The notes beneath the pieces are model-generated. The model ran no database searches, was not told the DNA's origin, and worked only from the letters and a program-made list of their open reading frames with translations. The position numbers and the translations under genes are program-made. 64,000 bases of DNA from Desulfocapsa sp. (lineage in GTDB: Bacteria > Desulfobacterota > Desulfobulbia > Desulfobulbales > Desulfocapsaceae): contig JAESPV010000037.1 in assembly GCA_016765495.1 (NCBI GenBank), positions 3,946 through 67,945 of the forward strand. Reading direction: 5' to 3'. Numbering within the stretch: position 1 is the stretch's first letter; each line of letters begins with the position of its first letter. Below, one piece after another: positions 5,801-28,336 of this stretch.

Positions 5801-5869
5801 AAATGTAATATCTGTAGGAATCAATTTATAGTGTTATTGGTGTATATAAAAAGCTACCCTTAACCTCTA

Positions 5870-6148: not shown

Positions 6149-6173
6149 GGTAAAGCCCTCCTTTTTATGGGTA

Positions 6174-6489: not shown

Positions 6490-6506
6490 GGGTATTGAAG
6501 AGGTAC

Positions 6507-9122: not shown

Positions 9123-9132
9123 AAGTACACTC

Positions 9133-13332: not shown

Positions 13333-14055
13333 CTATTGCAACTGAAAGCGGATCGGAACCTGAACCCACATCTCTTGTGGCCTGCCACCAATGGTGCCAG
13401 CGTTAAAACGCCAGTTTCGCACAGCCTTTATTGCGGCCTTATCCAATACAGAATGACCACTGGAAAGGACAATTCGGAGTTCCTTCACCCTGCCATGGTC
13501 ATCAATAAGAGTTTCCAGTAAGACAACTCCTTCAAGGCCGCGGCGCCGGGCCAGACGCGGGTATTTCGGGGGTGGGTTGACTTGATAGAGTGGCGTCGCC
13601 TGTTGGATGATATGGGCGGCAGTATCGGTCTTGGAGTTTTTTTGTTCTTCGCTAATCTCGGTCTGGAGCGGGGGCTGATCTTCGGGGACGATTTTTTGTT
13701 TTTGAATCGGTTGGGGTTTGGGAGCAGGTTGAACAACTGGACTTGTAACCGGTCGAAGTTCAGGCTGTTTTGGTTTTGGTTTTGGTTTGGGCTTGAGATT
13801 GGGTTTAGGTTCAGGCCTGGGCCTGGGCAGTGGTTGCGGAACAACCTCTTTCTTTGTTACGATTTCTTTCTCTGGCTCAACGTTTGGTACTACCTCCTTA
13901 ACAGCCGGCGTTGCCCCCAAAGAAACAACAATCCGTTGCACTGCCAAAGGGGCTGGCAAGATTGTTTTGTCACTGGTTATCGGCCAGCAGAGAATAATCG
14001 TGTGCAGGCTTAGAGTGGTTATTCCGGCCAAGAAGAGACGCCATGTTCTGCTCAT
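13333..14055 (-). CDS. tonB: TonB energy-transducing protein
   Basis: Periplasm-spanning protein of 240 residues that couples the proton motive force to outer-membrane receptors. An N-terminal membrane helix (about residues 8-25) leads to a long Pro/Lys-rich rod (repeated KPKPKPK and PRPRPEP, about 70-130). The C-terminal TonB domain (about 155-240) contains YPRLARRRGLEGVVLLE and a closing AVRNWRFNAG block. It overlaps exbD by 4 nt (ATGA). The gene set sits in the corrinoid operon and most likely energises the receptor at 25376-27418. Confidence 0.9.
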   Translation of the reverse strand: MSRTWRLFLAGITTLSLHTIILCWPITSDKTILPAPLAVQRIVVSLGATPAVKEVVPNVEPEKEIVTKKEVVPQPLPRPRPEPKPNLKPKPKPKPKQPELRPVTSPVVQPAPKPQPIQKQKIVPEDQPPLQTEISEEQKNSKTDTAAHIIQQATPLYQVNPPPKYPRLARRRGLEGVVLLETLIDDHGRVKELRIVLSSGHSVLDKAAIKAVRNWRFNAGTIGGRPQEMWVQVPIRFQLQ

Positions 14056-14507
14056 GGATTTACAGCATCCGGACTCTCAAAACCTTGCTTAGCAGCTACA
14101 GCCTGAAGAGAAATCTTACTCAGACCAGCCTCTTTAACACAGTCCATCACCTTAAATAACTCTTGATAAGAAACAGATTTGTCGGCGAATATCTGAACCT
14201 CCGGCTCTTTAGTACCCATGGTTTTCAATTTTATATCGTGCAGTCTTTCAACCAATCTGGCTAAAGAAACAGATTCTTCTCCAATAAAAATCAGTACTTC
14301 CGAGTTATTGTCTTGTATGGTGACACTGATGGCTTCCTGGATTTCCAGGGTAGCACTGCTTGAACTGGGCAGATCCACGACTTGCCCATAATGGACGGCC
14401 ATGGAAAGCATGGCATAGATAAAAAAGACCAGTAGGAGAAAGACAACATCAATAAGAGGCATCACCTCTATCCGTGCAGGTGAGAGCGGTTTATGGTTGA
14501 GCTTCAT
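14052..14507 (-). CDS. exbD: ExbD/TolR biopolymer transport protein
   Basis: Membrane protein of 151 residues that forms the proton path with ExbB. The single N-terminal helix holds the essential Asp (PLIDVVFLLLVFFIYAML, about residues 17-34). The periplasmic domain ends with the usual VSYQELFKVMDCVKEAGL and SLQAV blocks. It overlaps exbB and tonB by 4 nt on each side, so the three are translationally coupled. Confidence 0.9.
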   Translation of the reverse strand: MKLNHKPLSPARIEVMPLIDVVFLLLVFFIYAMLSMAVHYGQVVDLPSSSSATLEIQEAISVTIQDNNSEVLIFIGEESVSLARLVERLHDIKLKTMGTKEPEVQIFADKSVSYQELFKVMDCVKEAGLSKISLQAVAAKQGFESPDAVNP

Positions 14508-15121
14508 TTTTCCCCTGACCGGACTTTTTGGTAAACCACCTCCAAACTGGTGGCATATTTTTCCATGACATGAATGGCGTCTTCGATTCTGCTCTTGAAA
14601 TAGTTATAGGGAAAGACGGTGGTGATGGAGATCCCAAGGCCTGTGGCCGTGGTAATCAGCGCCTGGGCAATACCACTGGTAACCAGTTTTGGATCGGCAA
14701 TACCGCCAGCGCCCAGCATTTCGAATGAGGAAATAATTCCCAGCACCGTACCAAAGATGCCAAGCAGTGGGGCAACGGTGATCATGGTGTCGAGCACGGT
14801 CATATATTGGGACATTTTTTTGACCATGTGCCGGGCCTCGGCCTCCATGGCCTTAGCCATATCGTAGTTGCGATGCAGGATGCCGACATTGAGCATACGG
14901 ATGACATGATCGGTACACCCTAGGGTTTTTTCCTTGATTTGCAGCCAGTCTCCGCTTTCGGCCAGGGTGAGCACTTCGTCCATCAATATGCGATTCCGTC
15001 TTTTTTTAACCTGCGCCCAGAACAGGATTCGTTCAATAATGATGCATAGCACCACCATGGAACAGGCCAGCAACGGCCACATGACAGGCCCACCGCTTTG
15101 CATTATTTCATAAAGTCTCAT
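14504..15121 (-). CDS. exbB: ExbB/TolQ/MotA proton channel protein
   Basis: Three-helix proton channel of 205 residues. ATG 15121 overlaps the preceding gene's TGA (ATGA); a longer in-frame extension upstream lies inside that gene and is not used. The start MRLYEIMQSGGPVMWPLLACS gives the first helix. The cytoplasmic loop and the signature LLGIFGTVLGIISSFEMLG (about residues 120-140) plus ALITTATGLGISI are typical of ExbB. It functions with ExbD and TonB directly downstream. Confidence 0.9.
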   Translation of the reverse strand: MRLYEIMQSGGPVMWPLLACSMVVLCIIIERILFWAQVKKRRNRILMDEVLTLAESGDWLQIKEKTLGCTDHVIRMLNVGILHRNYDMAKAMEAEARHMVKKMSQYMTVLDTMITVAPLLGIFGTVLGIISSFEMLGAGGIADPKLVTSGIAQALITTATGLGISITTVFPYNYFKSRIEDAIHVMEKYATSLEVVYQKVRSGEK

Positions 15122-15990
15122 TGAGCTCTTCCTGTGGTAAGTTCTGGATGAATCAAACCGGCAATAATCCGGAGAGTATGGGCAAAGGTTGCGGGAGAGG
15201 GGCTGCACACAAGATCTGGATTGATTACATGCACTCGATCCTCCTGCACCGCTTTTATAACGGAAATGCGCTGCCAATTCTTTTTCTCATCCGCCGCAAT
15301 GCCTGACTCACTGCCCATAATGGCGATGATAATCACGTCAGGATTTTCGCCAATAACTTTTTCTATACCGGTGGTGCCGCTCTTTTGTTCCGCGAGAATA
15401 TTGATGCCACCGGCCAGGACGATAAAATCATGGGTAAATGAATTTGTCACCGCCCCAAACAGGGGCTGGGAACCAACCTGGAGAAAGACTTTTTTCTTTG
15501 TCAGCGGAAAAACCTTTTTTTGTACTTTCGCCACCTCGACCTGAGCCTGATAGACTATGGCCCTGGCTCGATCTTCCAGTCCCAATAACTCACCCAGGCG
15601 AATAAACTCATTGCAAATCTCTTTAAAAGAGGCAGTGCGTTTAAAACGGACCACCTTTATCCCCACGGCCTGTAACTGTCGAACCTGTTCAGGTTTGGTC
15701 AGAGCGGTGGCCAACACCAGGTCGGGGTGCTGGCTGATAATCTTCTCAATGGAGACCTGCATGACCGAGCCTATTTTTTCCTTATGTCTGGCTGCCTCAG
15801 GCCGTACGCAATAGTTGGTGTTGGCAACCAGGCGGTCGCCAGCCTCCAGTAAAAAGACATTTTCGGTATTGATTGGGCCGAGTGAGACGATGCGCCTGGG
15901 GAACTCTTTCGCATACGCTTGACCGCTCAACAAAAAGAGGTAGCTGATGAGGAACCACAGGCTCAATAATTTAGATAGGGTCATTATCAA
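15118..15990 (-). CDS. BtuF-like periplasmic binding protein
   Basis: Exported solute-binding protein of 290 residues from the BtuF/FhuD class, with a signal peptide ending near SGQAYA. The two-lobed fold is shown by RRIVSLGPINTENVFLLEAGD (residues about 31-50), the YCVRPEAARHKEKIG loop, the long helix around residues 125-150, and PDVIIIAIMG in the second lobe. The context (TonB system, CbiK, CobN-like, CbiZ) points to corrinoid or another cobalt/tetrapyrrole ligand. No ABC permease or ATPase follows, so it may deliver to the operon's own enzymes. It overlaps cbiK by 4 nt. Confidence 0.75.
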   Translation of the reverse strand: MIMTLSKLLSLWFLISYLFLLSGQAYAKEFPRRIVSLGPINTENVFLLEAGDRLVANTNYCVRPEAARHKEKIGSVMQVSIEKIISQHPDLVLATALTKPEQVRQLQAVGIKVVRFKRTASFKEICNEFIRLGELLGLEDRARAIVYQAQVEVAKVQKKVFPLTKKKVFLQVGSQPLFGAVTNSFTHDFIVLAGGINILAEQKSGTTGIEKVIGENPDVIIIAIMGSESGIAADEKKNWQRISVIKAVQEDRVHVINPDLVCSPSPATFAHTLRIIAGLIHPELTTGRAQ

Positions 15991-16835
15991 TAGTACCTGG
16001 CCAGGCTCAGGCTCCTTTTGAGTCTCTCCATGAAGAAAGTGTTGATCTCCGGATAATAGGCCAGTCCTTTGAAAAAGTTTTTGCCGTTATGGTTAATGGT
16101 GGCGCATTCCACGGAAAAACCCATCTCTTCCAAGGACGTCCGCCAACTATTTTCGTCACCCATGAGATCCTCTTCTGCATGCAAACCGGCCAGATACATC
16201 ATTGGGATGATCTTTATTTTGTTGTACTGGCTTAAACGATGATGCTTTATGCGTGTCAGCACCGCCTCGTGATCTGGCACGCCTTCGACACTGGCAGCCA
16301 TGACATTGAGATAGAGGTCGGCCACCATCCTTTCCAGCCCCAGGTAGACAATGTTCACCGGATCAGCGGTGAGGGGCGTGCCGTGGAGGGCCAGGATGTT
16401 CAAACCCTCATCGGGATGCAGAAATTCTGTCTCAACTACGGCCAGGGTCTCTCGCACAAAATCCCAGCGGTGGAGCAGGGGTTCGCTTAAAAGTACCCGC
16501 AGGCCTGGGAAATACGCGCAGGTTTCCTGCAGTTGCTGGTATTCGGTGCCCGGAAAGATGTGGAGCGGCTGGACCACTGCTTTGCGAAATCCCTGGGACT
16601 CTACCTTGGCCAAGGTCTCCTGTAGGCCTGGCAGTCCCATTTTTTTACGGATGATTTCTGAGGTGTAGGCCCAGAAAATATTGTGCTCAGGAAAGCTGGC
16701 CGTCACCTTTTTTCTGAAGATGTCCAGGGCTTCCCCGGCCTTGGAACTGGAGCCAAAAGCAGCAATAATGACAGCTGGTTTCTCCTCAAGTTTCGGGAGC
16801 CGCATCTTGCGGCCTATATATCCGTGCTGGTGCAT
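15987..16835 (-). CDS. cbiK: CbiK-like anaerobic sirohydrochlorin cobaltochelatase
   Basis: Chelatase of 282 residues that in the family inserts Co(II) into sirohydrochlorin at the start of anaerobic B12 synthesis. Evidence: AVIIAAFGSSSKAGEALDIF at the start of the fold, the VVQPLHIFPGTEYQQL block, a catalytic His in ILALHGTP (about residue 175), and a second in YLAGLHAEEDLMG (about 224), where typical enzymes read AGDHA. There is no signal peptide, so it is predicted to be cytoplasmic, unlike the periplasmic CbiK of some Desulfovibrio. The start may be ATG 16835 or 16805. It lies 75 nt after the CobN-like gene. The metal could also be nickel or iron. Confidence 0.82.
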   Translation of the reverse strand: MHQHGYIGRKMRLPKLEEKPAVIIAAFGSSSKAGEALDIFRKKVTASFPEHNIFWAYTSEIIRKKMGLPGLQETLAKVESQGFRKAVVQPLHIFPGTEYQQLQETCAYFPGLRVLLSEPLLHRWDFVRETLAVVETEFLHPDEGLNILALHGTPLTADPVNIVYLGLERMVADLYLNVMAASVEGVPDHEAVLTRIKHHRLSQYNKIKIIPMMYLAGLHAEEDLMGDENSWRTSLEEMGFSVECATINHNGKNFFKGLAYYPEINTFFMERLKRSLSLARYY

Positions 16836-16910: not shown

Positions 16911-19900
16911 CTAATTCTCTCCTCTTGCCCTGGCTCCATAAGCAGCCAGGGCAATGATCAGCAGCACCACAAGCCCTGCCAGCCATTCCACTCCGGAGGA
17001 GGTGACTTCGGTGGATTCGTCCTGGCTTGTCATTTTTTCCATCTTGTAGCCCTCGATCTGAGTCTCGGCATCTGCATCGGCCTTGTCTTGTTGCTCCAGC
17101 ACTTTTGTGTTCTTTTGGGACTGCTGATCTGGAGATGCACTTTGCTCACTTGGAGCAGTGAGCTGTTTTTGCAGTTTTTTACGGTCAGTCACCTGTTTTG
17201 CCAGGGACTTCTGAGCCGCCTGCTCAATGGCCAGTTTGAACTTCTCCACCATCTCCGGGCTCATGACACCGGGCAGAGAAATGATGGAGACCACCATCTG
17301 GTTTAACAGGGGGTTGTTGCAGGTATGCTCGCAGCAGGCCACCCCTTTTTCCACCACGCTTACGGCATATTCCACTGCCAGTTTTTGCTGAACTTTGTCG
17401 TCCGCCTGCCAGTAGCCTTTACGAACGGTTTCCAGCATGCGAGCCGTGATTGACTGATAGGACCAGGGGTTGGCCTGATCAAAAAACTTCTTTAATTCCA
17501 GGCCATACTTGTCCTCCACATAGACCTCATAAGACTGCTGCCACTTGGCGGCATCCACCTTTTCCGGGGTGGTCATCTGCCACCCCCAGAGATATTCAAC
17601 AAAATGGGCCATCTCCCTGGCCCCGGCATACTCTTCCTTCTGCATGCCTTTAATCCACTTAGGATTGAGATAGCGGCTCCGCATCTCCCGACCCAGGGTC
17701 TTGGCCATATCCTCTACACCCACCTGGCCCGGTTTCTGCTGCTGGGTTATGAGGGTTTCAGGGGTGGCCCCGGACTCAAGGCGAACCGCCATGGATAGCC
17801 CACCCAGATATTGAAAAACGTCATCATTATCAAGGAGACCATAGATATTGGATGAACGGGAATGCAGGGTGACATCCACTTCGGCCAGATTGGCTTGAAG
17901 AAGCTTTTTGGCCGGAACCGCCCACCGCCCTTCACCAAAGGCAAATCCCATCCTGTTTTCAAAAACATCAACAACCTCTCGCTCCTCCTGCCAGATGCCG
18001 GAACCAGAGGCCATCTCACCCACCCCGGTTCCGTAGGAACCAGGTTTTTCGGAGAAAATGCGTAAACGGCTAAGCTCCTCGGCCTCCTGCTCATTCATAC
18101 CGTCGGCCACAAGCTTCATCTTGATGCGGGCACTGTTGACCAGCAGGAGATTGCTGATATCCGTCTGGCGCATGGCGAGCTGCACGGCCTGGTCGATGAA
18201 CTCCATCTTGTCGGGGAATAAATCCCGATAAAGACCGGAGGCATTGATCATGACATCAATACGGGGCCGGCCAAGCTGGCTGGCTGGAATAACTTCCATC
18301 CCTTTGACCCTGTTGCTCTTTGTCCAACGAGGTTTGATCCCCATGAGAGAGAGAATGGTGGACTCGTTAACCCCTTCATTACGCATGGTCTCAGTGGCCC
18401 AGAGAACAACGGCCACCTTGGCTGGATACTTCTGGTGCTTAGTTAGATGATTTTCAATGATCTCGTCTGCCGCCTTCTTGCCAAGTTTCCAGGCCGCCGG
18501 GCTTGGCAGCTTCTGGGGGTTGAAGCCATAGAAACTACGTCCGGTTGGCAGGGCATTGGGGTTACGGATGGGGTCATTGCCCTCGCCGGGTCGGACATAC
18601 CGACCTTCCAAGCCAGCTAGCAGAGCCGTGATTTCAGCAGGACCGGAGCCGCTGATTCTGCTCTTTATCTCCTTTTGCTTTTCCGCAGGATTCCATCGAA
18701 CCACGGCCTGAGCCATATCAGCAATCTCCCGGTCGCCGGGACTCTTGCCAAAGCTGTGCATGCCGTAAGGCATGAGGTTTTCTCGAATCTCCTCAAGATA
18801 GTGGCCAAGGAGATGGATCTGCTCATTGTCCGAAACCTTGTGTTGGTGGCTATGATCCCCAATTTCATGTTCATGGGTATGACCAGGGTCATTGGCAATA
18901 TCGGCCAGAATCCCGGTCTGCTCAGCCAGGGTCATGATTTCTTCATATTTTAATTGGGCGGTGGTAGATTTGCGGGATTTGGCCCGTTTAAATTCATTGA
19001 TAAGCTCGTTCATCCTGCCATACTCTTCATGCAAACCGGCCTCTTTGAGCATGGGGGTGAGGTGAGAAATAATGACCGCACGACCCCGCCGCTTTGCCTG
19101 AATTCCCTCCCCCACATCATCTACAATATAGGGATAGATATTTGGAATATGACCAAGGAGTACCTCGGGCGGGCAGGAGGCCGACAGCCCCGCCTGTTTT
19201 CCCGGTGTCCATTCATAAGTGGAATGAGTACCGAGATGAATCATGGCATCGGCTCTGAAACCATGATTCAGCCAGAGATAGACGGCCAGGTATTGATGGT
19301 GGGGGTAGAGGGTGGTGTCGTGGTAGAGCTTCATGGGGTCATCACCCCATCCACGGGCTGGTTCGGGTAACAGGATGAGCTTGCCAATGGTGACGGCAGG
19401 AATAATGAAATCCGAACCATCTTTCATGATGGCGGAATCCTCCGGACTGCCCCATTGTTCGATGACTCTGGCCTGAAAATTTTCGGGAAGTCTGCTAAAC
19501 CACAGTTTGTATTGATCCATTGGCAAGCGCACCACCTGCGAGGATCGCAGAAGACCATCGAGTTCTCCCGGAGCCCAGGAACCGATATTTCGCCCCGAGG
19601 TCATAATGAGCTTCTTTATTTCCTGTTCCGTGGGAATGTCACCTACCTTATAACCAGCTTTTGCCATGGCGGTGATTATCTGCGTAAGGGATCGAAAGAC
19701 ATTGAGATAGCTGGCGCCGATATTCTGCTTGCCCTGATGATGGTTATAGAACATGATAGCTACCTTCTTTTTATCGTTGGCCAGGGCCTGCAAATCGGCG
19801 AGTTTGTGGATACGGGCCATGAGCAGGTCAATATTCTCAGGAATCGGTTCCTTACGATAGTATTGTTTGCCATTTTCAGGATCGCTGAACTGTACCTTGG

Positions 19901-20864
19901 CGGCCAGGGGAGTAGGCTCAATGAGACCGGAGATCTCCGGGGTGGCGATGGACCAGGCCACCTCACTGCCACTGATACCAACAGGGCTCCTGCGCCACTC
20001 ATCCAGGGTATCGCCATAAAGATTGATTATATTGAAGATGGGGACATTGAGTTTCCACAGATCCTCGGCAAGTTCGGCAGTCAGCCCTGAGTAAAACTTC
20101 AGGGAAAAGGCCAGAATGATGTCCACCCGTGAGCCGTCCTTTTTATCCAACAGGAATCGTTCAATGGTTTCCTGGTCCCGGCCAAAACAGGGCAGGACAT
20201 TGAACCCCTCCGCCTCCAGTCTGGAAATAAGGGTCTTGACCGGTTTCTGCTGACCAGGGGTAAGCGAGGAAGAGAAGAAGAGCAGGCCAATCTCTGGCCG
20301 GTGGCGATCATAATCAGCCCTGCTTTGTTGCCAGTTCTGAAACTGCTCAACAGTTGCGAATATCTGCTCGGCCTCGGGATGGTAAATGCCCATCTCCGCT
20401 TTTTTAAGCACCGCCCCATACGCAATGGTTTGGTCAAAATGACGATTAGCCACCAGCTTCAACATGTTGATGATATTGTCTTTACTGATATGAGCATAAT
20501 ACTCCGCAACCTGCTCATCAAAAATCAGTCCCAGTTTTCTAAGCCGTTCATCATCGGTTGAACCACGCAGGGCGTAAATGGTTTTATTCTGTAAACTAAT
20601 TTTGGCGGTGAGATACTCCTCCAAATCACGTCCCATGACATCTACGACAATTACCTTGGCCTGGTCGATCTCCCGGCGCAGGGATTCACCACCGGGAGCC
20701 AGTTCACCCGCGGCAATGACCTCGATGTCAACTGCCAGGTCAAGACCTGCCAGCGCCTTCCCAGCCAGGTATGAATTGTTGTCGAGCACCAGCAGGATCA
20801 GATCCGCAGCCTTGGCCTGCATGGGCAACAGAACAAAGGCGAGCAGGAGCAAAAAAACTTTCAT
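16911..20864 (-). CDS. exported, membrane-anchored CobN/HmuS-like chelatase-family protein
   Basis: This 1317-residue protein belongs to the CobN/ChlH large-subunit family. It begins with a signal peptide (MKVFLLLLAFVLLPMQAKA) and ends with a C-terminal helix (WLAGLVVLLIIALAAYGARA) and basic tail, so the body should face the periplasm. Family blocks include MFYNHHQGKQNIGASYLNVF, IHLGTHSTYEWTPGKQAGLS (about residue 530) and GTGVGEMASGSGIWQEE. A His-rich insert (HTHEHEIGDHSHQH) lies near residues 658-672, and a Gln/Lys-rich linker precedes the anchor. There is no ATP and there are no CobS/CobT partners in that compartment. The same set with MotA, DUF2149 and DUF2162 is hmuSTUV in Bacteroidota, where HmuS acts in haem demetallation. 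Here a cobalamin riboswitch suggests a corrinoid or cobalt substrate. Confidence 0.85.
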   Translation of the reverse strand: MKVFLLLLAFVLLPMQAKAADLILLVLDNNSYLAGKALAGLDLAVDIEVIAAGELAPGGESLRREIDQAKVIVVDVMGRDLEEYLTAKISLQNKTIYALRGSTDDERLRKLGLIFDEQVAEYYAHISKDNIINMLKLVANRHFDQTIAYGAVLKKAEMGIYHPEAEQIFATVEQFQNWQQSRADYDRHRPEIGLLFFSSSLTPGQQKPVKTLISRLEAEGFNVLPCFGRDQETIERFLLDKKDGSRVDIILAFSLKFYSGLTAELAEDLWKLNVPIFNIINLYGDTLDEWRRSPVGISGSEVAWSIATPEISGLIEPTPLAAKVQFSDPENGKQYYRKEPIPENIDLLMARIHKLADLQALANDKKKVAIMFYNHHQGKQNIGASYLNVFRSLTQIITAMAKAGYKVGDIPTEQEIKKLIMTSGRNIGSWAPGELDGLLRSSQVVRLPMDQYKLWFSRLPENFQARVIEQWGSPEDSAIMKDGSDFIIPAVTIGKLILLPEPARGWGDDPMKLYHDTTLYPHHQYLAVYLWLNHGFRADAMIHLGTHSTYEWTPGKQAGLSASCPPEVLLGHIPNIYPYIVDDVGEGIQAKRRGRAVIISHLTPMLKEAGLHEEYGRMNELINEFKRAKSRKSTTAQLKYEEIMTLAEQTGILADIANDPGHTHEHEIGDHSHQHKVSDNEQIHLLGHYLEEIRENLMPYGMHSFGKSPGDREIADMAQAVVRWNPAEKQKEIKSRISGSGPAEITALLAGLEGRYVRPGEGNDPIRNPNALPTGRSFYGFNPQKLPSPAAWKLGKKAADEIIENHLTKHQKYPAKVAVVLWATETMRNEGVNESTILSLMGIKPRWTKSNRVKGMEVIPASQLGRPRIDVMINASGLYRDLFPDKMEFIDQAVQLAMRQTDISNLLLVNSARIKMKLVADGMNEQEAEELSRLRIFSEKPGSYGTGVGEMASGSGIWQEEREVVDVFENRMGFAFGEGRWAVPAKKLLQANLAEVDVTLHSRSSNIYGLLDNDDVFQYLGGLSMAVRLESGATPETLITQQQKPGQVGVEDMAKTLGREMRSRYLNPKWIKGMQKEEYAGAREMAHFVEYLWGWQMTTPEKVDAAKWQQSYEVYVEDKYGLELKKFFDQANPWSYQSITARMLETVRKGYWQADDKVQQKLAVEYAVSVVEKGVACCEHTCNNPLLNQMVVSIISLPGVMSPEMVEKFKLAIEQAAQKSLAKQVTDRKKLQKQLTAPSEQSASPDQQSQKNTKVLEQQDKADADAETQIEGYKMEKMTSQDESTEVTSSGVEWLAGLVVLLIIALAAYGARARGEN

Positions 20865-20876
20865 AGTATATCCTTG

Positions 20877-21650
20877 TCACGCCGCTTCGTGTTGAATTTG
20901 CAGGCTTTTCGCCACTGTCATCAGGTTGCTATCGTGGCAATTCATAATGACTGCATCAAGACCTGCCTCAGCAAGGAGGGGCAACAGCCGGCAATGAAAG
21001 GCTGAACGATCTGCTTTGGCAAGACAAACAGAGCTGTTACTGAGCCCGATTATGGTTTTAAGGGCTGGTGAGGTAAGTTCACCGAGCAGATAAATAGTCT
21101 CAAGGAGCATGTCAATATCAGGCAAACCTGCACTAAGGCTCCAGCTTGCAGGGTCAGGCCGACAGCAGATGACAGGATCGATATAGAGTTGGGTTAAAGG
21201 CAAACCTGTTTGGTTGGCGGTATCAATAACCTGGTTTGCCAACAGTAAGCGATCATCAACATTAGCTGGTACCAGGTGGTCGCTTACCAGTAAGACCACC
21301 AGGTTGGCAGAGAAGTATTTGGCTGTCTCCATGGCCTTGGTAAGGGACGTGGAACTTGCGGTAACAGCATTGATGGTAGCAGTTCCTGTGTGAATTTCCA
21401 AGGCTCGTTGTTGTTGTAAAACATGGCTGGAAAGCAGGAGAGGTATATTGATCGCACCCTGAATTGTTTCCACCAGCCAGGGGGTGAGTCGTCCTAATTT
21501 TTTACTGCTGCCAAGATTGACAACAAGGGCAGTCGCTCCAGCATCGACCTGAGCAACGGCAATTTTGGTGAGACTTGCCTGGTCCAGTGTCTCGATGGCT
21601 TGAATAAATGACTGATTCATGGGGTGTAAGTCTTCGCCGATAATTTCCAT
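20877..21650 (-). CDS. pterin-binding (DHPS/MeTr-like) methyltransferase homologue
   Basis: A 257-residue TIM-barrel protein, predicted cytoplasmic, with AAGGAAG upstream of ATG 21650. It resembles the pterin-binding fold of dihydropteroate synthase and of methyltetrahydrofolate:corrinoid methyltransferases. Family-like blocks are AQVDAGATALVVNLGS (strand/helix 1, about residues 33-48), TATINAVTASSTS, LYIDPVICCRPDP (about 160) and TIIGLSNSSVCL (about 205). MeTr family enzymes move methyl groups to the cobalt of corrinoids, which suits this operon. No separate corrinoid protein is nearby. It lies 12 nt before the CobN-like gene. The exact reaction is unknown. Confidence 0.7.
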   Translation of the reverse strand: MEIIGEDLHPMNQSFIQAIETLDQASLTKIAVAQVDAGATALVVNLGSSKKLGRLTPWLVETIQGAINIPLLLSSHVLQQQRALEIHTGTATINAVTASSTSLTKAMETAKYFSANLVVLLVSDHLVPANVDDRLLLANQVIDTANQTGLPLTQLYIDPVICCRPDPASWSLSAGLPDIDMLLETIYLLGELTSPALKTIIGLSNSSVCLAKADRSAFHCRLLPLLAEAGLDAVIMNCHDSNLMTVAKSLQIQHEAA

Positions 21651-21722
21651 GGTATTCTTCCTTTTGGTTTTGTAAAGGTTTCCGGTGGAATGGCAAAATT
21701 ACCATGCCGGAGCGATAAATTA

Positions 21723-23729
21723 TCATCTATCGTTGTGCCTGGCACTTTTGGCCAGATCATGTTGTCTGGTTGCCTTGGCAAGCAGTCCATTCATTCCCAG
21801 ATTCAGAACAGTTGGCAGTTGCAGATCTATAATGGCAAACTCACCACCGACAATGGCTTGGCACCAGACATTCACACTGCTTAAATCCGTAATAAGGCCC
21901 TTTTCATAATCGTCAGAGATTGCCATGATTGCCTGTATGAAATTGGCATGCTGATCTTGTAAGAGTAGGTTTTCCAATGTTCTGTGCAGTGTGACCTGTC
22001 CACCATATCGTTTGCTGATGTTAAAGAGGCTTATTTTGCGATCTTTGAGGCGTTGAAACACAGACCGTCCGCTTTTCACTCCGTTTTGGAGGTGGCTCGC
22101 CTGCTGTACACCCTCATAAACAGCCCTTGCCATGAGTTCCCCCATTTTGGTATGACCACCGCTGGAATCAATGGAAACTCCGCTCCCCTCTACCACAATG
22201 ATATTGTCTGTACCCGTGCCAGTGGCCTGGTTGAGTGCAGAGGAGTAGCTTGAGCGGATATCCATATCCTGCAGGGCCGCGGTCTTGCCTTCAGTGGCAG
22301 AGATGATAGCCCGGGTCATAGCTCTAGGGCTTAATTTCATATTACTCATCAGCAGAATATTGATGGTGCCGGGTTTCTTCGGGGTGACAGGTTGTTCAGG
22401 TTCATAAAAGCTGCCACTATCAGCTCCCATTCGCACCGCATTACTCTGTACTCCAGCGGTAACAAGGGCTGTGACCGTCATCTCCTTATAGGATTTCCGA
22501 ACCACGGCCAGGTTGTCCATGTTGGCTCCGGTAAAAAGCATGGCGGTGGATTCCGGGGCAAGACCTAAAACCTGTTGAGTGCTTTGGCGCAAGGCATTCA
22601 AGCCCTGCTTATGGCCTAGACCCCAGGCAGGTGGAGGGAAATAATGGTTGGCCACCGTGGTGATACCTGTCCGTTGGCCTTCCAGGGTGGAGACCACTGT
22701 CATAGCTTTGTTAAAGTGGATAGCCACGGTCTTATTTCGAAAATCTTTTATGTCACTGTCGATAAGCTCGGCGGTTTCAACATAGTCAAGATTCAGGGCT
22801 AATGGCCTGCGGCTCACCACCTGCTCAGGCAGGACAAAATTGGCTGGCTTGGCAAACTCCTGGCCATACAGCCTGGCCGAAAGCCAGGAAACAAAATAGC
22901 CGGAATGGGTGGCAGCACGGCAGGTCAAAGCGCAGGGGAAGAACATTATATTGTTGTTTTTAACGGCGTCCACCTCGCGCCATCCCGGCTGATTCAGGAT
23001 GCCTATGGTCTGGCGGTCGTCACCGCATCCGTAAAGCACTTGAGGGTTAAAGTTACGCCATTGGTCAAGCTCAACCGGGATGATATTACCGGTTTTGCCA
23101 AACTGCGGGGCAATACCACCGGCAGCACGAATATAGTCATTCTGAAAAGAATCATCGCCAGGCGCCATGATCTTATCCCGACCCATGAGCCGCATAACCC
23201 TTTTGCGCTTTTCGGTGGGGATTTTGGCTACCTTGGCTTCGATGACTTTAAGGTGCCGTTTTTCTTTGGCAATAATCGCAGTAGCTTCATCCTGTCTGTT
23301 AAAGATACGGCCAAGAAGCTCGATATGGTCAAAGGCTTCAGCGATTGATTGTGCAGATAAGTTCACCAGGACAACCTGTCCCTGAAATGTTGGAAGCACC
23401 TCTTTTTGCAAGCCGGCATAAAAGATGATATCTGGATTGAGAGCCGCAACCCTGTTCATGTCAGGACTGAAAAATCCACCGATAATCGCCTTTCCCGCAG
23501 CCTCAGGCGGCAGGAGTGAATGGTAGGTAAGACCAACAACCGACTCGTCCGCTCCGAGACGCAGAAGGATCTCGGTGACCGATGGCACGAGAGAGACAAC
23601 CCGCCTGGGCTGCGCAGTCAAACTGATCTCTGTGCCGCTGGAATCAGTAAAGGTTATGGACTGGCCGGCCTGCAAAGTTCCGAACGGGAACAATAAAAGC
23701 ATTATGAAGAATATGTTGAGTAGTTTCAT
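21723..23729 (-). CDS. exported BtuF-CbiZ fusion (binding protein plus cobinamide amidohydrolase)
   Basis: A 668-residue protein with a signal peptide ending near TLQAG. Residues about 25-285 form a BtuF-type binding domain (RRVVSLVPSVTEILLRLGAD, then ALNPDIIFYAGLQ). Residues about 310-545 match CbiZ adenosylcobinamide amidohydrolase: the AIHFNKAMTVVSTLEGQRTG opening, MLFTGANMDNLAVV, ALVTAGVQSNAVRMGADSG and the later VVEGSGV block. About 120 C-terminal residues are unassigned. CbiZ normally works in the cytoplasm, cutting the nucleotide-loop amide so that imported corrinoids can be rebuilt. Here the signal peptide puts it outside, joined to a corrinoid binder. It overlaps the DUF2149 gene by 4 nt. 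Confidence 0.85.
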   Translation of the reverse strand: MKLLNIFFIMLLLFPFGTLQAGQSITFTDSSGTEISLTAQPRRVVSLVPSVTEILLRLGADESVVGLTYHSLLPPEAAGKAIIGGFFSPDMNRVAALNPDIIFYAGLQKEVLPTFQGQVVLVNLSAQSIAEAFDHIELLGRIFNRQDEATAIIAKEKRHLKVIEAKVAKIPTEKRKRVMRLMGRDKIMAPGDDSFQNDYIRAAGGIAPQFGKTGNIIPVELDQWRNFNPQVLYGCGDDRQTIGILNQPGWREVDAVKNNNIMFFPCALTCRAATHSGYFVSWLSARLYGQEFAKPANFVLPEQVVSRRPLALNLDYVETAELIDSDIKDFRNKTVAIHFNKAMTVVSTLEGQRTGITTVANHYFPPPAWGLGHKQGLNALRQSTQQVLGLAPESTAMLFTGANMDNLAVVRKSYKEMTVTALVTAGVQSNAVRMGADSGSFYEPEQPVTPKKPGTINILLMSNMKLSPRAMTRAIISATEGKTAALQDMDIRSSYSSALNQATGTGTDNIIVVEGSGVSIDSSGGHTKMGELMARAVYEGVQQASHLQNGVKSGRSVFQRLKDRKISLFNISKRYGGQVTLHRTLENLLLQDQHANFIQAIMAISDDYEKGLITDLSSVNVWCQAIVGGEFAIIDLQLPTVLNLGMNGLLAKATRQHDLAKSARHNDR

Positions 23730-24067
23730 TGTGTCTCCGGTACATAGACCATGGATCCATCGGCTAAACGATAGGCAGTTCCTAAGCGTTCACCCATGCC
23801 TTTGGCCTTTTCTTTAGTGACCCTCATGGCCTCGATTTTTTTGCCCTTCTTGGTGATAATTTCCATCTCACCGCTGGCCGATCGTTTTATGATGGTCAAC
23901 TCTGAGTCTTCCTGGAGGAGATCTTCCAGGTGAAAAGCACCAAAGAGGGCCAGGAGCAGGCCAACGATAAAGACCAGGCCCAGATCAAAGAGGTTGGCCA
24001 CCCCTGCCAGGGGATCGTTATCCGACAGCCCGGCCCCCCGGTTCTGATTATGATGGAAATATTTCAC
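23726..24067 (-). CDS. DUF2149 protein (HmuU-like, ExbD-like layout)
   Basis: A 113-residue protein with one N-terminal membrane helix (NLFDLGLVFIVGLLLALFG, about residues 26-45) preceded by DPLAGVA, and a charged periplasmic domain of about 65 residues ending in DGSMVYVPET. An Asp at the start of the helix, with a proton-channel partner encoded next door (MotA/ExbB-like, 1-nt overlap), recalls ExbD/TolR. DUF2149 members travel with CobN-like, MotA-like and DUF2162 genes. Probably part of a proton-driven motor acting on the CobN-like protein; this is inferred. Confidence 0.75.
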   Translation of the reverse strand: MKYFHHNQNRGAGLSDNDPLAGVANLFDLGLVFIVGLLLALFGAFHLEDLLQEDSELTIIKRSASGEMEIITKKGKKIEAMRVTKEKAKGMGERLGTAYRLADGSMVYVPETQ

Positions 24068-24669
24068 TATTCGCCTCCGTCCGTTGTCAACAGCTCGGCG
24101 GCCAGAGTCATGTTTTTAATATCTTCCTCAATCCAGCGCCGCTGGATGGTGAAGAAGCAATAACTGATTATTCCCAGAGCCATGCCCACCACCGTGGTGG
24201 TGAAGGCGATGACCAAGTCGCCGGAAAGCCGGGTGAGGTCACCCTGGCCCAGAGCAGCAAGGCCGGTTCCCATGGGAATAAGGGTGCCGATAAGGCCAAG
24301 GCCTGGGCCGATACGGATGAGCATCTTCAAGCGATCCAGGGATTTCCAGAGTCGATGTTCGTTTTCCCGCAGCAGATTCAAGATCGTGACTTCCTTGGCG
24401 CAGTTGTCTTTTAGAACCAGAAGCTCCTTGGTAAAGGATTGAACCGAATCAGGAAAATCGGTAAAGGTGTGATTTTCTAAGGATGCAACGACATTTATTT
24501 GCCTTGGCAACCGACTGCGGCGCAACCCGCGACCAACAAAATTCCCACTGTAAATCACCATCCAGACGGTGAGCAAGGCCAGCAGCACCAGCACCGGAGC
24601 CAACAGAGATGAGGCCGTTAGGTAGATAAAAGATTTCAACAAGGCCATTAGGTCCATGATGTTCTCCAA
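24067..24669 (-). CDS. MotA/TolQ/ExbB-family proton channel (HmuT-like)
   Basis: A 200-residue inner-membrane protein. The first helix is about residues 15-40. A cytoplasmic region of about 70 residues follows, then two helices carrying LIRIGPGLGLIGTLIPMGTG (about 116-135) and DLVIAFTTTVVGMALGIISY (about 150-170), the ExbB/MotA signature. This is the operon's second proton channel; the ExbB at 14504-15121 pairs with a normal ExbD/TonB. This copy neighbours DUF2149 and DUF2162 instead, as in hmuSTUV. It overlaps the DUF2162 gene by 22 nt. Confidence 0.82.
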   Translation of the reverse strand: MENIMDLMALLKSFIYLTASSLLAPVLVLLALLTVWMVIYSGNFVGRGLRRSRLPRQINVVASLENHTFTDFPDSVQSFTKELLVLKDNCAKEVTILNLLRENEHRLWKSLDRLKMLIRIGPGLGLIGTLIPMGTGLAALGQGDLTRLSGDLVIAFTTTVVGMALGIISYCFFTIQRRWIEEDIKNMTLAAELLTTDGGE

Positions 24670-25373
24670 AATGATTTGATAAAGCTGATCGTAAAAATCA
24701 AACTCATTGCAGCTAAAAGAAGGGGCAGTTGGCTGCTCGCCATGGTGGCAGTGCTCATGCTCAGGCGGTAGATGCGCGCCATGTCGGCAAACTGGGGAAC
24801 CACGGCTAAGGTAACGAGAAAATAGAGGGCAGCCAGAACCATGATGGTACCCAGTCCATGTTCAGCATTTGTACCTTTGCTAAAAAAAGCAAGGATAAGG
24901 GCGCTGAACAGACTAATGCTGATAAAACCTGTCCCCAGCCAGGGAAAGAGCCATGGCTCATCCGGCAGCAGACGGTGCAGGAAACTGCTGGAAAGCACAA
25001 TGACCGAAAAACAGAGCGGACACGGCAAAGTCAGCAACAGCCAGCCGTGGCTTCTGGTTTTTGAATCATCCCTTTTTTTAAGCAGAGCCATTCCCCAGAT
25101 CAAGAGCAGACCGGCCAGGATGAAATGGATGGTCATACCGTTTTTGAAGAACAGCATCACCGTATCCAGACGCGCAAGGAAATTGACCTGGCTGACCAGT
25201 ACCCAGGCCAGCCAGAACAGAAGTCCATAACAAACCATGAAACCGAGGCAGACCATTGTCCTTCCAGCCAGTCCAGCCTGCTGTCGCCATAGATAGGAAA
25301 GTCCGGCCCCGCTTTTAAAGGCAAAGATGCCTAAGGAAAAGACGAGGCCGAGAATGAGTGACTTAAGCTCCAT
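24648..25373 (-). CDS. DUF2162 multi-pass membrane protein (HmuV-like)
   Basis: A 241-residue integral membrane protein with about six or seven helices. A Cys-Pro-Leu-Cys motif (LLTLPCPLCFSVIVLSS, about residues 115-131) sits at the edge of a helix and could bind metal or haem-like ligands. The family is known to me only by its association with CobN-like, MotA-like and DUF2149 genes in bacteria and methanogenic archaea. It begins 2 nt after the receptor stop. The function is unknown; it may be a membrane conduit for the metal or the tetrapyrrole. Confidence 0.72.
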   Translation of the reverse strand: MELKSLILGLVFSLGIFAFKSGAGLSYLWRQQAGLAGRTMVCLGFMVCYGLLFWLAWVLVSQVNFLARLDTVMLFFKNGMTIHFILAGLLLIWGMALLKKRDDSKTRSHGWLLLTLPCPLCFSVIVLSSSFLHRLLPDEPWLFPWLGTGFISISLFSALILAFFSKGTNAEHGLGTIMVLAALYFLVTLAVVPQFADMARIYRLSMSTATMASSQLPLLLAAMSLIFTISFIKSFWRTSWT

Positions 25374-25375
25374 GC

Positions 25376-27418
25376 CTAAAAGCTGTAACGATAGCTGACA
25401 AAGAACGATTGGCCAGGCTTAGGAAAACCCTTCTTCTCGTAATAATCTTTGTCAAAGATATTGTCGGCCTTGAAGATGACGCGGTGATGATCCAGGAAGG
25501 TGTAGCCCACCATCAGGTCAACCACGGTAAAAGAGGGATACTCCACCTCAGGGTAGCCAGCGGCGTTCCAGTCGGTATCTTTCATCCTGCCCTGATTGCG
25601 CACATGGAGTTTACCGTTAAAGGCACCGTCATCATATTGAACGCCGTAGTTCACCGTGTACTTGGCGACGTTATGGATATCCTTCATGGTTCCGTCCGTC
25701 TGTTCCTCTTCTGCCTTGAACATGTGGGTGGAATTAACAAAGAGGGAAAGTGAACGATCCCAATTCAGCGGTGCGCCGATGTCAAAGGACAACATGGTCT
25801 CTAAGCCTTCCATCTCTGCACTGAGGCTATTTTCATAGGTGGTGATGTTTCCACGTGTTGCCCAACTGATTTTGTCATCCACGTCGGTGTGGAAATAGGT
25901 GAGGTCAAGAGAAAGTCCCCAGTTCTGCTTATCGTATCCAACTCCAAGGTCATAGGACAGAGAGGTCTCTGGGTCGAGATTGGCGTTGCCACGGGTTATC
26001 ATGGTTGTGCCGCCAACATTGGTTTCAGAGTAACCGGCGAGCTGCCCGGCATTTGGTGGAACAAAGGCCTGGCCAATGGTGGAGTGGAGGCGAATACCTT
26101 GTTCGAAACGATAATTGAGCCCTGCTCTGGGACTGAAGGTTGAAAATGTTTCGGAGTTCGGCGTAAAATCAGTTTTGTATGGAGTGGATAGAGTTTCCAC
26201 ATCAAAGGCATCATAGCGGCCACCTGCCGTGGCAGTGAGCCGTTTATCCATGAAACGCCAGACTGTTTCCAGATAGCCTCCCCAGTTTTCTCTGGATTCA
26301 TCGGGGGACCAGGGTGCCTTTCTGCTGCTGTCCAGATTGTAACTACGGCTCTCCTTGTTAATGTCCTGGTAGTCAATACCGGTGATGATGCTATGCTGAT
26401 TCCAGCGATATTCATTTTTAATTTGCAGACCAAGCCAGTCTATATCCGAATCATAGCTCTGGTACGGGGCAACCTGGGTTGTGGTAAACCAGCCAGTATA
26501 ATGTCTGTACGTTTCCTGTGTCTCATTGGTTTTGTAGACCGTGAAACTGAGTTGGTTTTTTTCGCCTATTTCTCCAGTCACTGTGAAATCCAGACCGTAA
26601 CGATCAATGTCCTTGTGACCGGATTTATCATCACCTGCAAAGGTGTCGCCAGGAGTCTCGATATCGCGGCCCTGATAAATATCTGCACTGGTATCCAGTC
26701 GCCAATTTTCTCCTAGGTTTGCACCTAGGCGGAGGTTAGCATTTTGTGTCTGGTAGCTGGTGTTGGAGCGGGTCTCTCCATTACCCATCTTGAAATCATC
26801 GGCTTGATCAAAGCGACGGGCTGAGATATCAAAATCGAACCTGTCGCCAAGGCCGCCACCTAAGCTGGCCTTCTGAAAGTTGGTCTCAAAAGAACCAAAA
26901 CCAGCCTCGGCCATTCCGGTGAGCTCTTCTGTGTTCTTCCTGGTGATAATGTTGACCACACCACCCATGGCCTCGCCGCCATAGAGGGAGGAGGCCGGGC
27001 CTTTCAGGACTTCGATGCGCTCGATATTGTCTGAGAGGATGGTGGCAAGGTTGGTGGCCCCGGCTGGGCGGCCATTAATGAGAACTAATGAATGTTTGGT
27101 GATGCCGGAGAATTCCGGACGAAAACCACGAATACCAATACCTGCCAAGGCTCCGGGATATTCAATAACCCCAATGGATGAATTTTTCTTAAGCTGTTCG
27201 GTGAGGGTGTAGGCTACAGTTTCTTCAATGGTCTGCCTGTTGATTAGTTCAACCTTCGCCGGTACATTTTTAATGCCTTCTGCGCTTCTTGTGGCTGTGA
27301 CCACCACCTCTTCCAAGGTGGTTGCTTTGTTGTCTTTTGTTCTTTCTTCCGCGGCAACAGCCAGACTTGCTGAACCAAGAAGAGCTAAGGCAATACCTGA
27401 GCGGATTATCTTTCTCAT
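25376..27418 (-). CDS. TonB-dependent outer-membrane receptor, BtuB-like
   Basis: A 680-residue outer-membrane beta-barrel importer. It has a signal peptide (cleavage near SLAVAAEE), a Ton box TLEEVVVTATR at about residues 34-44, and a plug domain (VPAKVELINRQTIEE, IGIRGFRPEFSGITK, IERIEVLKGPASSLYGGEAM, GGVVNIITRK). The 22-strand barrel ends in VSYRYSF with the terminal Phe. GGAGATG precedes the ATG. As the first gene after a cobalamin riboswitch, its ligand is very probably a corrinoid. ExbB, ExbD and TonB to drive it are encoded in the same operon. Confidence 0.88.
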   Translation of the reverse strand: MRKIIRSGIALALLGSASLAVAAEERTKDNKATTLEEVVVTATRSAEGIKNVPAKVELINRQTIEETVAYTLTEQLKKNSSIGVIEYPGALAGIGIRGFRPEFSGITKHSLVLINGRPAGATNLATILSDNIERIEVLKGPASSLYGGEAMGGVVNIITRKNTEELTGMAEAGFGSFETNFQKASLGGGLGDRFDFDISARRFDQADDFKMGNGETRSNTSYQTQNANLRLGANLGENWRLDTSADIYQGRDIETPGDTFAGDDKSGHKDIDRYGLDFTVTGEIGEKNQLSFTVYKTNETQETYRHYTGWFTTTQVAPYQSYDSDIDWLGLQIKNEYRWNQHSIITGIDYQDINKESRSYNLDSSRKAPWSPDESRENWGGYLETVWRFMDKRLTATAGGRYDAFDVETLSTPYKTDFTPNSETFSTFSPRAGLNYRFEQGIRLHSTIGQAFVPPNAGQLAGYSETNVGGTTMITRGNANLDPETSLSYDLGVGYDKQNWGLSLDLTYFHTDVDDKISWATRGNITTYENSLSAEMEGLETMLSFDIGAPLNWDRSLSLFVNSTHMFKAEEEQTDGTMKDIHNVAKYTVNYGVQYDDGAFNGKLHVRNQGRMKDTDWNAAGYPEVEYPSFTVVDLMVGYTFLDHHRVIFKADNIFDKDYYEKKGFPKPGQSFFVSYRYSF

Positions 27419-27467
27419 TTCTACATCTCCTAGTTTGAAAAAATTCAGGTCCGGAGATGCTTAAAAA

Positions 27468-27515
27468 AAAAAGCAAAAAAAATCCCCGAACCAATATGAT
27501 ATTGATCCGAGGATT
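27468..27515 (-). terminator. intrinsic terminator in the riboswitch leader
   Basis: On the minus strand AATCC-CG-CAATAT pairs with ATATTG-CG-GGATT (27481-27515), and a run of U (A-run at 27473-27480 on the plus strand) follows. It sits between the cobalamin riboswitch and the receptor gene, so it is probably the switch's off-state terminator. A second, shorter hairpin, AAAGTC/GACTTT at 27618-27635, also followed by U residues, lies nearer the aptamer and could do the same job. Confidence 0.75.
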
Positions 27516-27647
27516 CCCTGATTTTTCCACGAATTGAATGCTCTCCCTTGTCCACGAAGATAAGCGTATCCCTGCTCAGGCCATTTCTCCAGCCCGGCAG
27601 GTTATGAAAAAGGCAAAAAAGTCGATCAAGACTTTCCCCCCCTTCAT

Positions 27648-27822
27648 AAATAATTTCAGACAGGTCTTCTGACTTTCGGATCAGTCTACTTACTGCGTCT
27701 TCCCACATAAAAAAAATGCAGTGACATCATGCAGTGTTCGTCCCCGATTACAGCGGCGGGCCCGTTCCGGATTTTCACCGGATTCCCTATTAAGCTCTAT
27801 TACAAGCATCTAAAACGTGTGA
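27648..27822 (-). promoter_or_regulatory. cobalamin (B12) riboswitch
   Basis: On the minus strand the leader contains the conserved blocks GGGAATCCGGTGAAAATCCGG, then CCCGCCGCTGTAAT, CACTGCATGATGTCACTG, GGGAAGACGCAGTAAG and the B12 box AAAGTCAGAAGACCTGTC, all in order and normally spaced. This is a full aptamer. It should repress the downstream receptor and corrinoid operon when adenosyl- or other cobalamin is plentiful. End positions are approximate. Confidence 0.93.
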
Positions 27823-28336
27823 CGAATATAGCTTTGGAGATAATAAAAGTCAAGCAGGGAAAAAATGAATAGGTGCTGCCTAAGGAACGGGAGCTAAATA
27901 ACCTGAATACGGGACATTGTTACGGGCCAGTTGATTAACAACGTCGATTTGAGGTGGACAATCATGTCAAATAACAGGTTCCACCCACAACCATTTTTTA
28001 TTCAACTTGTAACATTGCTCTAACCAATTTCAAACAATTCACTTGTATTTTTCCTGTCTGATCAAAGAGTTCTGTAGAAAATGATTGTTAGGATTCAGGA
28101 GTCGTTGACCATTGGCTGTTGCGAGATATCCGTGATGTAAATTGAATGTCGAATGTCGAATGTCGATGGATGAAGGAAGAGCTATGCAGTGATCCCCGTT
28201 CATTATTCGTAACTTTATTGGATTGCACTCCACACGTGTAAGTAGCGAGCAACGCAGAAGACAGCAAAAAAAAAGCATTACTTTGTTCAAGTTTTTTGCT
28301 GTACGTATCTAAACAAAACAGATTGGGAGTTGTGTT
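27823..28336. repeat. intergenic stretch with repeat copies upstream of the phytase-like gene
   Basis: There is no gene here. It holds a sequence, GGAACGGGAGCTAAATAAC (from 27881), that recurs with changes at 31145; a segment (27994-28064) that recurs at 53077-53147; and three tandem copies of GAATGTC (28144-28164). AAAATGATTGT at 28078 recurs near 31219. The riboswitch promoter should also lie in the left part, but I cannot pick a convincing -10/-35. Confidence 0.55.

Follow-up and report, generated by a model that had tools for sequence, protein, structure and literature searches.

A cobalamin-riboswitch-headed operon of Desulfocapsa joins an anchored CobN-family protein to an ExbB/ExbD-like pair and may handle corrinoid or cobalt in the cell envelope

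What does a CobN-family protein do when it is anchored in the membrane, probably exported, and encoded behind a cobalamin riboswitch? The question is raised by a 64,000-nucleotide stretch of Desulfocapsa sp. DNA (assembly GCA_016765495.1, contig JAESPV010000037.1; "the window" hereafter means this whole stretch), where such a protein is encoded with a MotA/ExbB-like channel protein, a DUF2149 protein and a DUF2162 protein. Work on HmuS in 2025 established that a CobN relative can work in reverse, with haem as its substrate. The set described here points to a branch of that machinery tied to B12, and roughly one in ten genomes sampled from the window's phylum carries it. A link of this system to corrinoid or cobalt is probable, and it is better supported than one to haem. 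With confidence somewhat short of even, we read the operon as a B12-riboswitch-controlled envelope system for an exogenous corrinoid or cobalt-tetrapyrrole, in which the CobN-family protein, of the type called BtuS, would remove or exchange cobalt. Papers are cited by PubMed Central (PMC) number, each for its accessible excerpts.

The operon consists of at least 12 close-packed genes on the minus strand, from 27418 down to 13333, all downstream of the riboswitch. CbiM is the next gene on that strand.

27642..27828, minus strand: cobalamin riboswitch RF00174, full length (114.1 bits, E 7.5e-28, model 1-189)
25376..27418, minus strand: TonB-dependent receptor, 680 amino acids (aa) (Plug and beta-barrel matches)
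24648..25373, minus strand: DUF2162 membrane protein (T subunit), PCPLC at 117-121 (PF09930, 119 bits)
24067..24669, minus strand: MotA/ExbB-like proton-channel protein (U subunit) (PF01618, 46 bits)
23726..24067, minus strand: DUF2149 protein (V subunit), ExbD-like, one transmembrane (TM) stretch with Asp28 at its start (PF09919, 107 bits)
21723..23729, minus strand: fusion of a signal-like N-terminus, a BtuF-like domain and CbiZ (adenosylcobinamide amidohydrolase) (PF01497, 67.8 bits; PF01955, 182 bits)
20877..21650, minus strand: pterin-binding, CH3-H4folate:corrinoid methyltransferase-like protein (PF00809, 29.3 bits; PRK07535, 125 bits, under cut-off)
16911..20864, minus strand: CobN-family protein (BtuS type), 1317 aa, signal-like N-terminus, C-terminal anchor, ACCEHTCNNP tail motif (PF02514, 1085.7 bits)
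15987..16835, minus strand: CbiK-type class II chelatase (PF06180, 131 bits)
15118..15990, minus strand: second BtuF-like periplasmic binding protein (PF01497, 103.8 bits)
14504..15277, minus strand: ExbB, true start probably near 15121 by eye (PF01618, 104 bits)
14052..14507, minus strand: ExbD (PF02472, 88.5 bits)
13333..14055, minus strand: TonB (PF03544, 90.6 bits)
12466..13071, minus strand: CbiM, cobalt uptake component, 261 bases past TonB (PF01891, 202.5 bits)

A sequence-only reading of the window had placed a complete cobalamin riboswitch at the head of the operon, and a MotA/ExbB-like channel, DUF2149 and DUF2162 beside the CobN-family protein. The RF00174 match, spanning the whole model, confirmed the first claim, and Pfam matches on one strand the second. 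Beyond its list were the methyltransferase-like gene, the extension of the gene run to TonB, and the fusion of CbiZ to a binding protein. The window's genome has five further cobalamin riboswitches, and its only PF02514 gene is the operon's CobN. No CobS/CobT or ChlI/ChlD partner was found among the operon genes.

Riboswitch linkage was surveyed in 395 genomes of the window's phylum, searched for DUF2149 above its cut-off. The domain was present in 42 of them, the window's own included, and 40 of these had a PF02514 match. We read 41 loci, made up of 40 places from 37 genomes plus the window (38 genomes; G012, G043, G072 and G136 were left out). A same-strand riboswitch stood upstream of the set in 26 loci and was missing in 4; in the other 11 the contig ended first. 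Doubtful loci were scanned a second time, and G012, which has a riboswitch by coordinates, was kept out of the count. The distance from the riboswitch to the first gene was at most about 310 bases, or the riboswitch overlapped an over-long start, in 24 of 25 non-window loci; the exception was L089, at 4 kilobases from the set. All nine near relatives of the window whose contig reaches upstream had the riboswitch (L003-L007, L010-L012, L014), and in three others (L008, L009, L013) the contig was cut before that region. Two cobalamin riboswitches near one set were seen in tandem in L075, L079, L081, L091 and L129, and on opposite strands in L116.

The second sample was the phylum of G395, the Mariprofundaceae genome behind L004. 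DUF2149 was found in 16/398 genomes, and 16 stretches from 15 genomes were read. Six had a same-strand cobalamin riboswitch (L111-L114, L116, L117; the one upstream of CobN in L114 scored only 33.5 bits), and ten had none. DUF2162 had no match in any of the 16 stretches. In the six, CobN-MotA-DUF2149 lie near the riboswitches and, where tested, near CbiA/CobB-, CobO-, nitroreductase- and CbiB-type genes. Soon after the riboswitch, L113 and L116 encode a membrane protein of 189-224 aa that has no Pfam match.

The window protein stood apart from HmuS in a tree of 73 CobN-family sequences, built in a quick IQ-TREE run without bootstrap after the motif columns had been taken out. L108, very divergent and without the HxGxH motif, and the duplicate L069 were left out; caveats are long end branches (L092, L094, L123) and compositional bias in many rows. 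The 65 extracytoplasmic-type rows grouped together, apart from the cytosolic rows (Shimodaira-Hasegawa-like approximate likelihood ratio test, SH-aLRT, 99), and the clades described below all fall within this group. In the 31-row clade of the window (SH-aLRT 100) the riboswitch was present in 26 rows, absent in 0 and undecidable in 5. A 43-row clade (97) had 33 riboswitch-linked rows, 3 without (L058, L080 and Runella L092) and 7 undecidable. HmuS formed a separate, HmuY-adjacent clade of three named Bacteroidota, and no cobalamin riboswitch was found in a scan of three HmuS-clade loci, L130 and L131 among them. L113-L117 made up a clade of their own with B12 surroundings. On the tree the riboswitch label took 13 changes, where shuffled labels averaged 24.3 (0/500 shuffles as low), and 7 with decided rows only; the linkage is therefore clustered but not of single origin. 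As far as tested, the proposed survey of haem-linked and B12-riboswitch-linked clades thus came out with B12-linked close homologues and HmuS apart; Fur-type control was not examined.

A further clade, of 12 rows with a DDPF/DHPF motif, was mostly without a riboswitch. CobN genes with DDPF or DHPF adjoined TonB receptors, again with no cobalamin riboswitch, in L102-L107, L109, L110, L078 and L095. Cytosolic-type CobN was split into genes of about 800 and 500 aa in L124-L127, whose genomes also have the exported type. By pattern and eye, the split genes adjoin BtuF-like, ABC- and AAA+-type genes, and ChlI-like Walker-A genes lie near them.

Hydropathy supported an envelope location of the window protein. 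Its N-terminus is hydrophobic and ends in AKA-A, and a second hydrophobic stretch lies at 1290-1308. The control consisted of 75 CobN-family proteins, 67 of exported and 8 of cytosolic type. The C-terminal stretch separated them cleanly, with 67/67 exported-type rows at 1.55 or above and 8/8 cytosolic rows at 0.45 or below. The N-terminus separated them poorly: 1.4 was reached by 62/67 exported-type rows but also by 3/8 cytosolic rows. The five exceptions among the exported type were L008, cut by the contig, and L066, L067, L074 and L112, whose frames look over-long. Of the two features claimed from the sequence alone, the C-terminal anchor is firm, and the signal peptide, judged by eye from hydropathy, is likely. 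Both set the protein apart from cytosolic CobN.

BtuS was described in a 2003 paper, as quoted in PMC6460266, as a third type of CobN-related proteins. The window protein agrees with this type, an exported CobN-family protein apart from CobN and ChlH, in that it belongs to the 65-row group of a tree built without ChlH. The class I chelatases CobNST and ChlHID share with it the CobN-Mg_chel family, the HxGxH motif and the CobN Asp-Asp motif. They differ in having no C-terminal anchor (8/8 cytosolic rows) and, as is generally known, in being driven by ATP.

The best solved match was HmuS of the Bacteroidota haem de-chelatase HmuS/HmuTUV (PDB 9D26), with 517.7 bits vs 465 for CobN and 421 for ChlH. 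Both systems have an exported, anchored CobN-family protein whose partners are a MotA-like protein and DUF2149, and the positions of His538 and Met79 are common to them. Defining HmuS residues were taken from PMC12583661, where exchange of His538 for Ala abolished turnover. His547 of the window protein aligns with it and was invariant (30/30), in the motif HLGTHS vs HFG(T/A)HG of HmuS. Met77 stands at the site of Met79, a haem ligand of HmuS, and is nearly invariant in relatives, and Asp1014 corresponds to HmuS Asp1208 (invariant, 30/30). Other HmuS features were missing. The site of the haem ligand His254 aligns within AFSLKFYS, which has no His; His1209 is replaced by Asp1015 (invariant, 30/30) and Glu1212 by Gln1018. 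At the LSLDHxxEFMGG site of HmuS the window reads LLDNDDVFQYLGG, and the named HmuS sequences L093, L130 and L131 read LSLDHVYEFMGG. The methionine-rich insertion of HmuS domain IV is absent, with 43 residues vs about 240 between the same aligned blocks, and the window stretch 652-692 contains 8 His and 0 Met. A His-rich loop at about 662-675 is common among exported-type rows only to L003, L004, L005 and L014, and is therefore no family feature. Judged by these residues, the window protein appears to be a relative of HmuS but not an HmuS itself. The set also departs from HmuS/HmuTUV in its DUF2162 with PCPxC as T, its CC(D/E)HTC tail, the B12 riboswitch, CbiZ and its separate clade. The earlier equation of the set with hmuSTUV held for S, U and V but failed for T, as HmuT of two named haem loci had no Pfam match to DUF2162.

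Asp-Asp at the HmuS His1209 site is the state of solved CobN proteins, and this chelatase motif favours insertion: BtuS would be a periplasmic cobaltochelatase charging metal-poor or metal-free imported corrinoids, with a proton motor in place of CobS/CobT. We consider this distinctly unlikely. The S-U-V genes of L111-L114, L116 and L117, near riboswitches and (where tested) CbiA/CobB-, CobO- and CbiB-type genes, would agree with insertion, and PMC8620254 raised a comparable possibility for chlorobial CobN. However, CbiA and CobO act in the cytoplasm and BtuS outside it. CbiC, a marker of de novo corrin ring synthesis, was found in 37/42 DUF2149 genomes, and CbiK, an enzyme that inserts cobalt at an early stage, is present at many loci. 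Metal-free corrinoids are also scarce in nature, to our knowledge.

Corrinoid or cobalt had been preferred over haem from the sequence alone. The strongest single pointer to the ligand class is the BtuF-CbiZ fusion, because CbiZ (PF01955, 182 bits vs a cut-off of 27) acts, as far as we know, on corrinoids only. By hydropathy, the fusion and the second BtuF have hydrophobic, signal-like N-termini; that of CbiK is not signal-like. The best NCBIfam models of the receptor were TonB-hemin (260.9 bits), TonB-siderophor (179.1) and TonB-B12 (177.3), all under cut-off, and its best solved relatives were Cir (78.4 bits), BtuB (77.7) and PhuR (57.7). By sequence, the receptor and the BtuF proteins leave the ligand unsettled. 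CbiK was closest to FetB (9b86, 90.7 bits) and 2xvx (89.6 bits) among solved proteins. The preference for corrinoid was supported by riboswitch linkage and the separate HmuS clade. A haem de-chelatase, HmuS in function and merely under B12 control, would suit the best solved match, the top receptor model and the FetB-like CbiK; the loss of His254, His1209, Glu1212 and the Met-rich insert, the separate clade, and the CbiZ fusion together with the riboswitch make it very improbable.

Also supported was an additional pair resembling ExbB/ExbD, next to the ExbB-ExbD-TonB that the operon already encodes. The MotA-like U protein matched an ExbB alignment by profile (E 1.8e-9). Asp28 of DUF2149 was conserved in 44/44 aligned sequences and in register with the ExbD Asp; the match is otherwise weak, being confined to 18 in-register columns of the local ExbD alignment (P 0.033). 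Like ExbB/ExbD-type stators, MotA-DUF2149 combines a channel protein with a partner that carries a TM Asp. PF09919 also weakly matches proteins reading as ordinary ExbD/TolR (L097-L101), which suggests common descent of DUF2149 and ExbD/TolR; the likeness of HmuV to ExbD was already stated in PMC10100974. An AlphaFold2 (AF2) model of DUF2149 was poor (predicted local distance difference test, pLDDT, 61), too poor for a fold search.

PMC12583661 and PMC10100974 both draw HmuU/HmuV as powering the receptor, and by analogy MotA-DUF2149 would only energise the outer-membrane receptor. Yet 12 loci, the window included, encode their own ExbB, ExbD and TonB beside MotA-DUF2149 and on its strand, so MotA-DUF2149 is unlikely to be the TonB motor. 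PF09919 and PF02514 also both match the genome of Methanosarcina acetivorans, used as a control, an archaeon that, as is generally known, has no TonB-type outer membrane. We give a role restricted to the receptor hardly any weight. The set points instead to an unassigned job, in which MotA-DUF2149 would drive a chelatase, here BtuS, rather than TonB, and DUF2162 would partner the CobN tail.

Gene content was tabulated for 61 loci, named loci L091-L096 included, by same-strand matches >40 bits. L011 and L069 represent a single contig, and five genomes contribute two loci each (L052/L054, L053/L061, L058/L059, L084/L128, L083/L129). Core genes were CobN (56 loci), MotA (55), DUF2149 (55), the receptor (48) and DUF2162 (47). 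Accessory genes were BtuF/CbiZ (26), CbiK (22), ExbB (14), TonB (14) and ExbD (13); 23 of the BtuF/CbiZ matches are long relatives of the whole fusion (at least 540 aa and at least 895 bits). FecCD was present in 15/18 DUF2149 genomes tested and had no match in 3/18. This count and that of CbiC cover only genomes with the set.

Three near-complete genomes (G054, G242, G341) have a riboswitch-headed set and no FecCD match. They favour a reading that is doubtful yet to be taken seriously, in which MotA-DUF2149 would move BtuS as a tetrapyrrole carrier of the periplasm, with no metal chemistry, and DUF2162 would be an inner-membrane corrinoid permease substituting for BtuCD. It is further favoured by an operon with BtuF domains but neither BtuC nor BtuD, and by CbiZ, which keeps the ring. 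The chelatase-type residues His547, Asp1014 and Asp1015, however, are kept in 30/30, FecCD is kept in most genomes tested, and the Runella protein in the T slot weakly matches NicO/DsbD_2, which would suit metal ions.

Two motifs, one in DUF2162 and one in the CobN tail, occur together. DUF2162 has a buried PCP(V/L)C motif, with P117, C118, P119 and C121 conserved in 34/34 aligned sequences (the degenerate L075 copy is not among them). Its counterpart is a periplasmic ACC(D/E)HTCNNP-type motif near the CobN C-terminus. Of 60 tree rows, 38 had both PCPxC and CC(D/E)HTC, 22 had neither, and none had one alone. Thirteen rows were excluded. Eight of them are cytosolic; in four more (L008, L057, L060, L128) the T gene lies beyond the contig; and L094, of exported type but lacking DUF2162 as well as CC.HTC, would have added one to the "neither" class. 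L075 is the most informative example: this member of the window's clade has a degenerate DUF2162 (10908-11588) that lacks PCPxC, and a CobN (4006-7905) with only C-x4-C in its tail. The L075 genome also has no FecCD match. Elsewhere the tail reads SCGHTTCDHP in Runella, GSGHTxxxH in four of L113-L117, and C-x4-C in 9D26 and L093. Such variety fits a site tuned to its metal better than a fixed redox pair. A metal relay was preferred to a pure thiol-redox relay on two grounds: L113-L117 have the GHT but no Cys (a second His follows in 4/5), and two HmuS sequences have no Cys at this place.

An AF2 model of DUF2162 built from 11 sequences reached pLDDT 75.5 and a predicted TM-score (pTM) of 0.69. 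VIA-align returned mostly transporter halves of the major facilitator superfamily type (best Z 9.4), matches too common among helical bundles to carry weight. On plasmid pRUNSL01 of Runella slithyformis (L092, 4596-12630), receptor, MotA, DUF2149 and CobN lie among hypA, hypB, hypF, hypC, hypD, hypE and hydrogenase genes, in a maturation cluster for [NiFe]-hydrogenase. The place of DUF2162 is taken there by a protein annotated as urease accessory, which matches DsbD_2 and NicO at E 1e-4, under their cut-offs; hhalign found no similarity between DUF2162 and this UreH-like protein. This single locus is possibly a nickel version of the set. Should nickel import be the task of its T-slot protein, these sets would have a metal importer as their third membrane subunit, and release of the metal would fall to the CobN-like protein.

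The sequences directly give the gene set, its regulation, the membrane anchor, the conserved residues and the co-occurring motifs, whereas the chemistry, proton coupling, metal hand-over and ligand are inferred. Under the preferred reading, the TonB receptor, energised by the operon's ExbB-ExbD-TonB, would deliver the compound to the periplasm. There BtuF-CbiZ would bind it, and CbiZ would cut back the nucleotide loop. Anchored BtuS would then take the tetrapyrrole into its chelatase cleft and act on the metal centre; the likeliest outcome is that cobalt is taken out or exchanged, by analogy with the related HmuS and its release of haem iron. The ExbB/ExbD-like MotA-DUF2149 in the inner membrane, not AAA+ ATPases, would supply the energy. 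The metal would finally pass from the CC(D/E)HTC tail of BtuS to PCPxC of DUF2162 and into the cell, for use by CbiK. Metal removal or exchange as the chemistry is put forward tentatively, at a shade under the confidence given to the reading as a whole. A fuller version is unlikely as it stands: a corrinoid de-cobaltase driven by the proton-motive force, with an ExbBD-like motor replacing the AAA+ ATPases and a Cys/His tail-to-CPxC metal relay, in a wider family whose members would be tuned to different metals: iron in HmuSTUV, cobalt in the present set and perhaps nickel in the Runella set. Should metal be removed, cobalt scavenging would gain a new route. The residue differences make the metal and the direction testable.

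Several points weigh against cobalt removal or exchange in a corrinoid system. Co-corrins are very inert, and we know of no enzyme that removes cobalt from a corrin. The presence of CbiZ speaks for salvage rather than stripping of the ring, and FecCD in 15/18 genomes means that another corrinoid import route may usually exist. The nearest solved relatives of CobN and CbiK are the haem enzyme HmuS and the haem-binding FetB, the receptor fits TonB-hemin better than TonB-B12 (both under cut-off), and Asp at the 1015 site is also found in true, inserting CobN. L058, L061, L078 and L080 have upstream sequence that was scanned and contained no cobalamin riboswitch. As for the paired motifs, 21/22 "neither" rows lack DUF2162 altogether (in L131 as judged from a reading of HmuT alone), and the coupling amounts to 3 independent changes, all concordant, for which a sign test (p 0.25) is uninformative. 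The tail is without Cys in L130 and L131, two of the four HmuS sequences seen. Foldseek with the DUF2162 model gave no match at E <= 0.001; CcdA was at rank 6 with E 0.46.

The idea is partly in print, and only a few earlier genome papers hint at a B12-linked envelope job for the set. Cobalamin-riboswitch-headed hmu-like operons were reported in Bacteroides, with a suggested cobalamin role (PMC10100974). Bacteroides fragilis has such an operon, and its CobN-like BtuS1 is predicted to be exported (PMC6460266); our assumption is that both descriptions refer to one locus. The study of BtuS1 concerned the use of haem iron, and the accessible excerpts mention no CbiZ fusion, CbiK or DUF2162 motif. 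The pSZ77 CobN of Trichlorobacter (Geobacter) lovleyi (L091) was judged cobalamin-linked, of unknown role and without CobS/T (PMC3403914). It is 40.6% identical to the window CobN over 93%, falls in the same 43-row clade, and has the same set and riboswitches; its locus differs in that no CbiZ fusion or CbiK was found there. The accessible part of that paper names no DUF2149/DUF2162 partner and no export. Methanosarcina BtuS copies are mentioned in PMC10846266, export and sites of P. gingivalis HmuS are treated in PMC13227078, and PMC8620254 and PMC7689651 served as background. In the accessible open-licence literature we found no account of DUF2162/DUF2149 with a B12-linked CobN, of a BtuF-CbiZ fusion in the set, or of the paired motifs.

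Just past the operon and beside CbiM, at 8199-12463 of the window, lie [NiFe] hydrogenase subunits, a DUF4198 protein and a small protein with a hydrophobic N-terminus. The methyltransferase-like gene sits between BtuF-CbiZ and CobN, encodes a protein with no hydrophobic N-terminus, and was seen elsewhere only in L011/L069.

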